This document shows positions 7,886 through 12,553 of a DNA stretch of 64,000 bases, piece by piece. Numbering within the stretch: the stretch's first letter is position 1; every line of letters begins with the position of its first letter. Position numbers and translations under genes: made by a program. The notes under the pieces are model-generated. The model ran no database searches. It saw only the letters and a program-made list of their open reading frames with translations, and had not been told where the DNA came from. The DNA comes from an uncultured Gammaproteobacteria bacterium (GTDB lineage: Bacteria > Pseudomonadota > Gammaproteobacteria > Pseudomonadales > Litorivicinaceae): NCBI GenBank assembly GCA_913057215.1, contig CAJXNQ010000004.1, forward strand, positions 1 through 64,000, given 5' to 3'.

Positions 7886-8767
7886 TTACCGACGATGACC
7901 AACCAAGCGAGTCCAGCCAGATTTGGACAGATCACTTGCAAATTGAATCTCGGGGTAGGCTGCTTTGACGTCTTGTGCCTGCGCGTCTAAAAGCCCCGCC
8001 ATCACCAGAGTACCGCCGGGTTTGACCAAGTCTGTCAGCGTATCTGCCAAGTCAATCAGCGGATTTGCCAAAATATTCGCCAAAACGACGTCGAAGTGTT
8101 CGCCTTGGATGTCGCCCGGCAGCGACGTGTTCACCGTTAAGTGATTCAGAGCGGCATTACTCGCCGTGGCCTGGAGTGCTTGAGGATCAATGTCAATTGC
8201 ATGCACTGAGGCCGCCCCCTGACAGCCCGCAGCCACACCTAAAATGCCTGATCCGGCGCCAAAATCAAGAACGGACAGGTGTTTTGCTGGGCAGTCACTC
8301 AGCCACTCAAGACACAGTTGTGTCGTGGGATGCATCCCGGTCCCAAAGGCAAGTCCTGGATCAAGAGATACCAGTGTACAACCGTCTGGGGTGGGTGCGT
8401 CGCTCCACGAGGGTTTGATCCAGAATCGGCCAATATGGAGTGGTTGGAATTGGTCCAGCGAGATTCGGATCCAGTCTTGATCTTCGAGGATGCTGAGTTC
8501 CGTCGGTAATTCAATGAGACAGCCCGCGCGCTGAAAGGCGTCAGCCAACGTATCGAGAATCTCTGAGTCGGTGCGAGTGTCACAGAAGAGCGCTAAAACA
8601 CGCGTTTGAGGCCACACAGGATGTGTGCCGACCGGCGGCTCTAAGATTGGAGTGTCACCATCATCTGACAGCGATACCGCTTGTGCATCACATACAAATA
8701 AGAGCTCTTCAGCCAGTGCGACGTCTGCCTCCGTACACAACAGCGCAACCTGGCGAAAGGTCGTCAC
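7886..8767 (-). CDS. prmA: Ribosomal protein L11 methyltransferase
   Basis: PrmA trimethylates several residues of ribosomal protein L11. The 293-residue sequence has an N-terminal substrate-recognition domain (1-about 100) and a Rossmann methyltransferase domain with the SAM site [13 protein letters not shown], the acidic strand IDIDPQAL and the catalytic-site motif [11 protein letters not shown]. The start is GTG at 8767, overlapping the accC stop as GTGA, so translation is probably coupled to accC. It sits 8 bases before dusB. In many relatives a DUF3426 gene lies between prmA and dusB; none is present here. Confidence 0.95.
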
Positions 8768-10107
8768 GACATCCCCAGCTTTTTCTCAAGATAGTGGATG
8801 CTGACCGGGCCATTTAAAAATGTGGAATCTGTAACGATCTCTTGTTGCAAGGCAATATTCGTCTGGATGCCATCGATCAACGATTCAGACAGCGCGATTT
8901 CCATGCGCTTTAGCGCCTCGGTCCGAGACGCACCGTGCGTAATGAACTTGGCGATCATGGAGTCATAGTGCGGCGGCACTTGATACCCCGAATAAATGTG
9001 ACTGTCGACACGAACTCCGGGCCCACCCGGTGGATGATAACGATCAATCGTGCCGGGGCTTGGCAGGAAGGTGGTCGGATTTTCGGCATTGATCCGGCAC
9101 TCAATGGCATGACCATTCACCTGAATATCGCTCTGTTGAAAGGATAGTGGGTGTCCTGCGGCGACGGTGATTTGCTCACGGATGATGTCGACCCCAGTCA
9201 CCATTTCAGAGACGGGGTGTTCCACCTGAACGCGGGTGTTCATTTCGATAAAGTAAAACCCACCATCTTCATACAGAAACTCAAAGGTCCCAGCGCCGAC
9301 GTATCCCATGTTTTGACAGGCTGCAATACAGGCTTCGAACACCTGAGCGCGGGCTTTTGGGTCGATATCAGGCGCGGGTGCCTCTTCAAGCACCTTTTGA
9401 TGGCGACGTTGCAACGAACAGTCACGATCAAATAGGTGGATCGCATTGCCGTGCATGTCACTGAGAACTTGGATCTCAACATGTCGAGGGCGCTGTAAAA
9501 ATTTCTCCAAATACACAGTGTCATCCCCAAAGGCTGTCTTGGCCTCGGTTTGTGTAATTTGGATCGCATTCAGTAGCTGTGCCTCGTCATGCACAACCCG
9601 CATGCCACGACCGCCGCCGCCAGAAGCAGCTTTCACAATGACCGGGTAGCCGATGCGTCGCGCAATCTCCAGAGTGGTCGCATCATCGCCACCAAGGGGG
9701 CCATTTGAGCCGGGCACCGTCGGAACACCGGCTTGCTGCATGGCCTCGATGGCCGCCACTTTATTCCCCATGAGGCGGATCGTTTCGGCGCGCGGTCCAA
9801 TGAACGTGAAGCCAGACTCTTCAACGCGTTCTGCAAAATCGGCGTTCTCGGCTAGAAATCCGTAGCCTGGATGAATCGCTTGTGCGTCTGTAATTTCAGC
9901 CGCGGAGATGATCGCAGGCACGTTGAGATAGCTTTGTGTCGAGGCATTGGGCCCAATGCAGACGGACTCATCGGCCAGCTTCACATGCTTTAAATCCCGA
10001 TCACAGAGCGAATGGACAGCCACTGTTTTGATGCCGAGTTGTCTGCAGGCGCGTAAGATCCGAAGTGCGATTTCGCCTCGATTCGCAATGACAATTTTTT
10101 CAAACAT
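8764..10107 (-). CDS. accC: Biotin carboxylase subunit of acetyl-CoA carboxylase
   Basis: AccC carboxylates the biotin carried on AccB using ATP and bicarbonate, the first half of malonyl-CoA synthesis. The 447 residues begin with [19 protein letters not shown]; the ATP-grasp loop [11 protein letters not shown] (about 159-169), [19 protein letters not shown] with catalytic Glu and Arg, and the C-terminal domain are all present. Full length. It follows accB after 3 bases, forming the standard accBC operon, and its stop overlaps the start of prmA. Confidence 0.98.
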
Positions 10108-10110
10108 GGG

Positions 10111-10560
10111 TCAGCCGATCACCACCAAGGGTTGGTCAAATTCCACCGGATCCCCGTCCTCAACCAAGATCGCCAGGACCTTGCCGGCCACATCGGCCTC
10201 GATCTGGTTCATCATTTTCATGGCTTCGACAATACACAGCGTGTCACCGACTTTGACTTCGCTGCCAACCTCCACAAATGCTGCCGAGTCTGGTGATGGT
10301 GACCGATAAAATGTACCGACCATTGGTGATTTGAGTTGATGACCGCTCGGTGTGCTGTCGGCTGGGGTTGTCGCAACCGGCGCCGATGCGGGCGTCGGCG
10401 CACTGATGACCTGTGCGGATTGCACCGGTGATTGCACCATCACCTGATTCGGCCCGTTTCGTGTGATGCGGACGCTTTCTTCGCCCTCGGAGATTTCAAT
10501 TTCAGCCACATCTGTGTCGTGTAACAGTTCGATCAACTTTTTGATCTTCCGAATATCCAT
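10111..10560 (-). CDS. accB: Biotin carboxyl carrier protein of acetyl-CoA carboxylase
   Basis: AccB carries the biotin that shuttles CO2 between AccC and the carboxyltransferase AccAD. The 149 residues show an N-terminal oligomerisation segment ([13 protein letters not shown]), a Pro/Ala-rich flexible linker (about 48-70) and a C-terminal biotinyl domain with the biotin-attachment motif [11 protein letters not shown], the lysine being near residue 115. Normal size and layout. It starts 5 bases after the aroQ stop and is followed by accC. Confidence 0.97.
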
Positions 10561-10565
10561 GGTGT

Positions 10566-11006
10566 TTAGTGATCCTTTGAGTGGTTCAGGATGGTTTGTA
10601 AGGCAAAGTGATAGCCATTGAGGCCACAGCCTGCAATTACGGCGATGGCTAAGTCTGAAAAGTAGGATGTCTGACGAAAGGGTTCTCGCTGATGCACATT
10701 TGAAATGTGTACTTCAACGAGGACTGGTTTGACAGATGACACGGCGTCACGAATCGCAACACTGGTGTGGGTCCAGGCTCCGGGATTAAAGATGATGCCA
10801 GTCACTGGCTGATGAAGCAGCGCTTGAATGCGTTCGATCATCTCGCCTTCGTGATTGCTTTGAAAAAATGTCAGCGTGGTGTCTGAAGGTGCCTTGTTAG
10901 TCAGATCGTTTGCCAGATCATCCAGCGTCGTGTGCCCATATATCTCAGGCTCGCGGTGACCGAGTAGATTGAGGTTCGGGCCATTTAAGACCAAGATCTC
11001 AGGCAT
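10566..11006 (-). CDS. aroQ: 3-dehydroquinate dehydratase, type II
   Basis: AroQ removes water from 3-dehydroquinate in the shikimate pathway. The 146-residue protein begins [22 protein letters not shown], containing the active-site Tyr, followed by [26 protein letters not shown], and [15 protein letters not shown] with the catalytic His and Arg. The start at 11006 gives the usual family length; a longer reading from 11111 would add 35 unrelated residues that overlap the gene upstream. The order aroQ-accB-accC is widespread in gammaproteobacteria. Confidence 0.96.
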
Positions 11007-11050: not shown

Positions 11051-11467
11051 TTAGCGCGAAATGGACAGTTCTTGTTGTTGCGGTGGGTAGCAAAACCCGA
11101 CATCTGCGCACCCCTGATAATGCAAGGTCACGGACTGTGTTGCTGCGTCCACCGACAAGGTCACATCTTGGCGGTGGATGGGCGTCATCCCGAAAATGGG
11201 ATCATCATACATATGTGCGTCAGGGCGCGTTGTGTTGAGTCGTTGGCCTGACACATCCTCAACGAAGGTTTTATCGTCGTAGAGGTAGGTTCCAGGCGCC
11301 ACTGAGATCTGAATTGTGGAACCTGTTGGTTGTGTAACCTGAAAGGCTTGGTCGACCGGCAAAATAGCGGGCGCCTCAAAACTCGAACCGAAGGTGCCGG
11401 CTGCATGGCTTTGCAAGGTGGCAAAGAGCATGCTTGTCACAGTTAAAAAGCGCAAAGTCCGTTGCAC
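11051..11467 (-). CDS. Stand-alone DsbD alpha (N-terminal) domain protein, periplasmic
   Basis: In DsbD the alpha domain passes electrons from the membrane domain to periplasmic partners such as DsbC. This 138-residue protein has a signal peptide (about 1-23, ending SHAA) and then only that domain: the redox pair C120 and C126 in YQGCADVGFCYPP and the cap loop with F92 (DDPIFGM) match E. coli DsbD closely. The stop comes where E. coli DsbD would enter the linker to its membrane domain. Only 44 bases separate it from aroQ, so no membrane or gamma domain remains. I prefer the GTG start at 11467, which has GGAGG 6 bases upstream and gives a proper signal peptide. In relatives a full dsbD occupies this place. 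Confidence 0.88.
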   Translation of the reverse strand: MQRTLRFLTVTSMLFATLQSHAAGTFGSSFEAPAILPVDQAFQVTQPTGSTIQISVAPGTYLYDDKTFVEDVSGQRLNTTRPDAHMYDDPIFGMTPIHRQDVTLSVDAATQSVTLHYQGCADVGFCYPPQQQELSISR

Positions 11468-11533
11468 AGATTGCCTCCGATTGTCATATTGACCAAGGAT
11501 ACTCTGTCCTGACGAAAATGAAATGGATTCCAC

Positions 11534-12553
11534 ATGCTCAAGCCGTTCTTCTCAAAGCTCTCTGAAATCACTCAGCAATCACGATGGGTCGCGCTTGGCT
11601 TGGGTGCAGTGACGCTGTATCTCATTGGCGCGGTGTTGCTTGGAATTCATTGGAGTCAGCCGCCTCGGCAAGCGACCACTGAAGAGATCCTGGCATCTTA
11701 TGCTCCGAAAGATGTACCGAGCGCAGTCGGCAATGCCACTGTCGGTGCACTTCTATTCGTCACCGAAACCTTACTTGAGAAACCCGGCGGATATCTGTCA
11801 AACGACATCACACCACCTGGGCTTTGGTTGGACAACATGCCCAATTGGGAATTTGGTGTATTGGTGCAGAGCAGAGATCTTGCGCGCGCACTTCGCAAAG
11901 ATTTGTCGCGAAGCCAGTCTCAGTCAACCGAAGATGCAGATCTGGTGATTGCCGAGCCCGCACTCAATTACGACAGCACTAAATGGTTCCCCTCGGCTGA
12001 GTCGAGCTATCGAAAAGCCATTGAGGCAGCCTCGAGTTACCAACGGCGACTGGCAACGCCCGATGAGCGGGCTCAATTTTATGCGCGTGCTGATAACCTT
12101 CGAAATTACCTCGCAGATGTTGAAACCCGGCTCGGCTCACTGAGCCAGCGACTGTCTGCCAGTGTTGGACAGATGCGGATTAACACGGATTTGGCTGGTG
12201 ATTCGTCAGCAGAGCAGTCCACGGAAGGCGCGTCCGAGCAGCGCATCCAGACACCCTGGCTGCAGATTGATGACGTGTTCTTTGAGGCGCGCGGAACCGC
12301 GTGGGCGTTGCTGCACTATCTGCGCGCCATTGAGCAAGATTTTCAATCGGTGCTCGATAACAAAAATGCACGCGTGTCTCTCCGTCAGGTGATTCGGGAA
12401 CTTGAGGCCACGCAACAGACGGTTTGGTCGCCCATGATTCTAAATGGATCTGGGTTCGGGATTTTCGCCAACCACTCGTTGGTGATGGCCAGTTACATCT
12501 CAAGAGCGCACACAGCCATTTCAGATCTGCGTGCGCTTCTTGAACAAGGATGA
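11534..12553 (+). CDS. DUF2333 family inner-membrane protein
   Basis: I recognise the 339-residue sequence as the DUF2333 family, found mainly in gammaproteobacteria; its function is unknown. One N-terminal membrane helix (about residues 18-40, WVALGLGAVTLYLIGAVLL) anchors a large, mostly helical domain with conserved segments PGGYLSNDITPPG and DNMPNWEFG and a coiled-coil-like stretch around 165-215. The helix makes the bulk of the protein likely periplasmic. It is transcribed away from the DsbD-domain gene (66-base gap) and ends directly against the convergent ppa gene, with no space for a terminator. Confidence 0.85.
   Translation: MLKPFFSKLSEITQQSRWVALGLGAVTLYLIGAVLLGIHWSQPPRQATTEEILASYAPKDVPSAVGNATVGALLFVTETLLEKPGGYLSNDITPPGLWLDNMPNWEFGVLVQSRDLARALRKDLSRSQSQSTEDADLVIAEPALNYDSTKWFPSAESSYRKAIEAASSYQRRLATPDERAQFYARADNLRNYLADVETRLGSLSQRLSASVGQMRINTDLAGDSSAEQSTEGASEQRIQTPWLQIDDVFFEARGTAWALLHYLRAIEQDFQSVLDNKNARVSLRQVIRELEATQQTVWSPMILNGSGFGIFANHSLVMASYISRAHTAISDLRALLEQG

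Follow-up and report, generated by a model that had tools for sequence, protein, structure and literature searches.

DsbD of E. coli, in which the alpha domain shares its chain with beta and gamma domains, has been cited as a domain fusion that widens the range of substrates (Katzen et al. 2002, as cited in PMC5403849). The oxidised alpha domain (nDsbD) of this protein meets gamma, and the reduced one meets DsbC, DsbG and CcmG (PMC7347389). The related ScsB proteins possess an alpha domain of their own with a C-X3-C motif, and ScsC and TlpA/PprX have been described as their partners, while it is stated that whether ScsB can serve CcmG was not analysed (PMC4491210). Here we describe a locus at which the DsbD alpha domain, the outer part of this protein-repair enzyme that delivers the electrons, is encoded alone, in a window of 64,000 nucleotides from an uncultured gammaproteobacterium of the family Litorivicinaceae (contig CAJXNQ010000004.1, positions 1 to 64,000). 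It represents the natural splitting of a textbook enzyme; the alpha domain most likely draws its power from a ScsB whose gene lies elsewhere in the genome.

A lone alpha domain upstream of aroQ

The small, probably secreted protein encoded at this locus (Table 1) is the DsbD alpha domain alone. DsbD_N (PF11412) is the sole Pfam match of the 138-residue chain (E 1.4e-18, 67 bits against a cut-off of 25) and covers positions 3-114 of the 119 of the profile, and the closest solved structures, searched with phmmer against the PDB, are those of the E. coli DsbD alpha domain (1l6p, 1jpe and 3pfu; E ~1e-11). Beta and gamma are absent from the chain and from the sequence before aroQ, the gene stopping 44 bases short of it. 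The preliminary description had likewise noted a chain of alpha only and the 44 bases before aroQ, and its view that a separate electron donor is needed is supported. The N-terminus resembles a signal peptide (VQRTLRFLTVTSMLFATLQSHA), and because of this probable Sec signal the protein is expected in the periplasm.

Table 1. Features of the locus, in coordinates of the window
Feature	Coordinates	Strand	Details and basis
Stand-alone DsbD alpha-domain protein	11051..11467	(-)	138 aa, GTG start at 11467, TAA stop; Pfam, PDB matches, locus conservation
GGAGG ribosome-binding site	11474..11478	(-)	6 bases 5' of GTG; from sequence reading
Probable Sec signal peptide, residues 1-22	11402..11467	(-)	Sequence reading: positive n-region, hydrophobic stretch, SHA-A
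Active-site Cys120 (E. coli C103)	11108..11110	(-)	1l6p alignment; present in all aligned copies
Active-site Cys126 (E. coli C109)	11090..11092	(-)	Motif CADVGFCYPP; alignments
Cap loop MYDDPIFG, residues 86-93	11189..11212	(-)	1l6p alignment and genus alignment
aroQ	10566..11006	(-)	ATG at 11006, 44 bases downstream of alpha; next gene of conserved cluster
accB	10111..10560	(-)	Synteny
accC	8764..10107	(-)	Synteny
prmA	7886..8767	(-)	Synteny
DUF2333 protein, divergent neighbour	11534..12553	(+)	Pfam PF10095, 483 bits; synteny

Both redox cysteines, which had been reported as kept, lie in the motif CADVGFCYPP, a C-X5-C of the DsbD type followed by YPP, and they are present in all copies examined. 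The accompanying statement that the cap phenylalanine is also kept holds only approximately. In the alignment, the position of the E. coli cap-loop F70 is occupied by Ile91, and Phe92 pairs with E. coli Y71; within the genus, residue 91 is I or L and residue 92 is F, except for L in G001. Across genera, position 70 is reported to be F or Y in 53% and a different bulky residue in 36% (PMC7347389). Given Ile91 at the F70 position, I or L there across the genus, and Phe92 at the Y71 position, the alignments indicate that the cap retains a bulky residue, though not the cap Phe itself. As regards the fold, the 1l6p alignment spans the cap loop, and a single-sequence AlphaFold model reached a pLDDT of 39, too poor for use. 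A scan for promoters and terminators gave no signal above chance.

The gene order, with the DUF2333 gene diverging from alpha-aroQ-accB-accC-prmA, is the same in all same-genus loci examined. A genome of the sister genus (G023) has the matching order through accC, where the piece of sequence examined ends.

Conservation and selection within the genus

The single-domain form occupies the same place in the same-genus loci examined, a check that had been proposed at the outset. A DsbD_N search detects in most same-genus genomes a short DsbD_N frame and a separate ScsB frame of 670-745 aa, and the short and the long frames are both found in all same-genus genomes that are at least 95% complete. 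In two members of the genus, G006 (89% complete) and G012 (91%), alpha is present and ScsB gave no DsbD_N match, perhaps due to the incompleteness of these assemblies.

The lone alpha is under purifying selection and clearly constrained, as had been supposed. Comparisons of pairs from the genus gave a dN/dS of ~0.10-0.31 for the gene wherever dS could be estimated; as dS is near saturation in distant pairs, the most reliable values are those of the close pairs G001-G008 (0.10) and G004-G007 (0.20). These values exceed those of aroQ or accB in comparable pairs. Both cysteines are present in every aligned copy, across at least five families.

Two explanations of the short frame could be discarded. 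Sequencing error or a premature stop is ruled out by the identical architecture in many separately assembled genomes, and decay beside a second complete dsbD is ruled out by the purifying selection on alpha and by the nature of the second protein, which is of the ScsB type with an alpha in a separate clade. The lone alpha is real rather than an artefact of sequencing, and it is not a copy in decay; a lone DsbD_N protein should not necessarily be annotated as a fragment.

Descent and spread in the order

In same-order outgroups, a full-length dsbD is found at the equivalent place upstream of aroQ, often beside DUF2333, which thus also marks the ancestral dsbD locus (L049, L050, L127, L134, L140, L143, L148, L149, L151, L153 and others). 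Because the outgroup locus carries a full-length dsbD, beta and gamma have been lost at the alpha locus, cleanly, as the preliminary description had proposed, and synteny indicates that the lone alpha descends from an ancestral aroQ-linked DsbD.

The same description had implied a peculiarity of one genome, a view that does not hold, the stand-alone alpha being widespread in the order, with occurrences in at least four other families. It is found at the aroQ locus in f44 (G222, G185, G204, G067, G122, G097, G257) and in f13 (G036, G075, G102). In f23, G132 has a stand-alone alpha and G046 has four genes separating alpha from aroQ; in f39, G218 has one as well, and G092 retains DUF2333 without aroQ. 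A search for related loci added one further case, L053 (MAG contig JALEHB010000220.1), with a stand-alone alpha before aroQ.

On a tree built from aroQ, accB, accC and prmA, the lineages with a stand-alone alpha fall in five sets; the best tree requires 5 changes and the bootstrap trees 3-5, of which the well-supported branches force only one. As the deep branches are unresolved and an AU test did not reject a single clade (p 0.069), repeated loss of beta and gamma in the order is graded as no more than likely.

Several loci depart from this arrangement. In G036 and G075 (L114:3291-4052, L115:6398-7126), the stand-alone alpha carries a long N-terminal extension with a lipobox-like LASC, and it is probably a membrane-anchored lipoprotein version. 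G041 (L117:5810-6313) has a DsbD-type stand-alone alpha away from the aroQ locus together with a complete classical DsbD. G072 (L176) has ScsB only, and its aroQ locus lacks dsbD, with ppa directly upstream of aroQ.

A ScsB-type protein on another contig

DsbD_TM (PF02683) has one match in the genome of the window, inside a 666-aa protein on contig C5, and in the near-complete sister genomes G001 and G020 it is likewise matched only in ScsB. The C5 protein begins with a long DsbD_N domain bearing a C-X3-C motif (CKEICIPE); the cysteines of its membrane domain lie in MPCVFP and TPCTAP, and its gamma domain contains WCITC. Its alpha' belongs to a single clade of ScsB alphas (SH-aLRT 100) that includes none of the DsbD alphas. 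By these motifs and this clade, the C5 protein is classified as a complete ScsB-type protein rather than as a duplicate of the ancestral DsbD. A CcdA-like protein, another DsbD or a new partner had been listed as possible donors; the genome search, which found scsB, dsbC and ccmG and detected neither a second ordinary dsbD nor a stand-alone CcdA-like PF02683 protein, narrows this list to ScsB.

In the genus, scsB and the gene of a TlpA-like thioredoxin converge, and the two adjoin each other in all members of the window's family checked, an arrangement that recalls the ScsB-TlpA-PprX route of Caulobacter (PMC5403849). The ScsC-type Thioredoxin_4 (PF13462) has no match in the genome of the window, which is 92.7% complete.

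The potential clients are encoded in the same genome: DsbC is found on contig C2, and contig C1 carries a Ccm operon that includes CcmF, CcmG and CcmH; DsbC is also found in most relatives. This CcmG carries the fingerprint GVAGAPETF, a region that has been associated with those CcmGs whose reductant is DsbD or ScsB (PMC5909903). The genome also has genes for a CCP/MauG peroxidase and an MsrA/MsrB fusion.

Other domain combinations occur in the order. Contig C12 of G097 (L164) encodes a 971-aa ScsB in which the ScsB-type alpha domain occurs twice in tandem, and G120 (L122:2957-3766) encodes a stand-alone ScsB-type alpha of 269 aa with C-X3-C, the ScsB counterpart of the stand-alone DsbD alpha. 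G034 (L109) and G143 (L096) have DsbDs of ~585 aa that combine a classical C-X5-C alpha with a membrane domain scoring like that of ScsB (60-76 bits vs 220-340), a second DsbD type that is common in the order.

Co-occurrence of the lone alpha with ScsB

The stand-alone alpha is present in 13 of 97 genomes of the order that were surveyed (G000, G001, G008, G009, G036, G046, G067, G075, G082, G092, G097, G102, G122), with G046, G082 and G092 counted as having the same gene despite rearranged or cut-off surroundings. A protein was called ScsB when its membrane domain scored below 100 bits and its DsbD_N-to-DsbD_TM distance was ~380-535 bases (~70-240 in DsbD), a rule picked after the data had been seen and checked on proteins that were read. 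ScsB accompanies the stand-alone alpha in 12 of the 13 genomes and is found in 8 of the 84 others (G031, G051, G072, G077, G104, G111, G118, G120; Fisher p 2e-9), whereas a complete non-ScsB DsbD occurs in none of the 13 and in 82 of the 84, two of them cut by contig ends (G074, G078; Fisher p 2e-14), both p-values overstating the case as relatives are not independent. The tree offers at most 5 independent contrasts, with which a pair test cannot reach significance.

The one exception among the 13 is G036 (an assembly of 100 contigs, estimated to be 99% complete), where neither ScsB nor DsbD_TM was detected; its close relative G075 has ScsB, and G036 may represent either an assembly gap or a real loss. 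In G022, of the same family as the window, ScsB is present and no alpha was found, but neither was the aroQ locus with the acc genes, the aroQ match being a divergent gene that is not acc-linked.

A proposed split system and its alternatives

We consider it fairly probable that the two proteins form a split system, in which the gamma domain of ScsB acts as the reductant of the free alpha, and alpha in turn as that of DsbC and CcmG. In the route that we infer from the genomic evidence, electrons would pass from cytoplasmic thioredoxin to the membrane domain of ScsB, from there to its gamma domain, and then in trans to the free alpha, which would hand them to the classical DsbD clients DsbC and CcmG; the C-X3-C alpha' of ScsB itself would have different clients, for example the TlpA-like thioredoxin encoded next to it. 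Transfer between separate chains has a reported precedent, as Katzen and Beckwith (2000) are said to have found that separately made domains of E. coli DsbD still cooperate. ScsB might also reduce DsbC and CcmG directly through its own alpha'. The broader proposal, that the DsbD alpha has been kept more than once in the order as a free adaptor re-routing ScsB electrons to the old DsbD clients, is put forward tentatively, as somewhat short of an even chance.

A first alternative accepts ScsB as the donor and assigns alpha a new client in place of DsbC and CcmG, for instance a periplasmic peroxidase, a methionine sulfoxide reductase or a metal protein. Clients of this kind are known in the DsbD family, as ScsB-TlpA-PprX and PilB illustrate (PMC5403849), and the peroxidase and the MsrA/MsrB fusion mentioned above would be candidates; but the active site of alpha has the ordinary DsbD motif, and the presence of DsbC in most relatives and of CcmG in the genome of the window speaks for the old clients, making this reading unlikely.

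Slightly less probable still is that ScsB does all the work and that alpha is a slow relic with weak residual function, on its way to being lost. In its favour are the complete ScsB in the genome, the dN/dS of alpha above that of aroQ and accB in comparable pairs, and G072, with ScsB and the entire dsbD gone from the aroQ locus. Against it, that dN/dS is far below 1, the two cysteines persist in every aligned copy in at least five families, and no near-complete genome of the genus lacks alpha.

The least probable reading is that alpha takes its electrons from something else than ScsB gamma, be it a CcdA-like protein that escaped detection, the TlpA-like neighbour of scsB or the ScsB alpha'. 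In its favour, alpha occurs in G036 without any DsbD_TM match, the TlpA-like gene adjoins scsB throughout the family members checked, and the search for CcdA-like proteins was confined to PF02683, one family beside the DsbD_2 type. Against it, near-complete genomes have no DsbD_TM match other than ScsB, and oxidised alpha is known to pair with gamma in E. coli (PMC7347389).

If the split system fed by ScsB is real, it would constitute the reverse of domain fusion in nature, namely domain shedding with one domain retained as an adaptor. It would also make the stated gap testable, that is, whether ScsB serves CcmG and whether a DsbD-type alpha is needed for it.

Comparison with known systems

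No earlier description of a stand-alone DsbD alpha was found in the open-licence literature, which is weak evidence of novelty with subscription papers outside the scope of the search. The E. coli DsbD alpha (nDsbD, PF11412) shares with the protein described here the domain, the C-X5-C motif, the cap loop as judged from the alignment, and probable secretion, and in outgroups the aroQ locus carries its ancestral gene; unlike in E. coli DsbD, with beta and gamma in the chain, neither is present here and the transporter is encoded elsewhere. The ScsB proteins of Caulobacter, Proteus and Salmonella resemble the C5 protein in their long alpha', their membrane domain with MPCVFP/TPCTAP and their gamma WCITC. 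In contrast to the described ScsB systems, no ScsC-type match was found, and the genome encodes a DsbD-type alpha apart from ScsB. CcdA is likewise a one-domain member of the DsbD system, but consists of the membrane domain only, whereas here only the soluble output domain is found. The closest described case is that of Legionella LpDsbD2, which also has a reduced set of DsbD domains but is the mirror image of the present one, with beta and gamma retained and alpha missing (PMC4491210).
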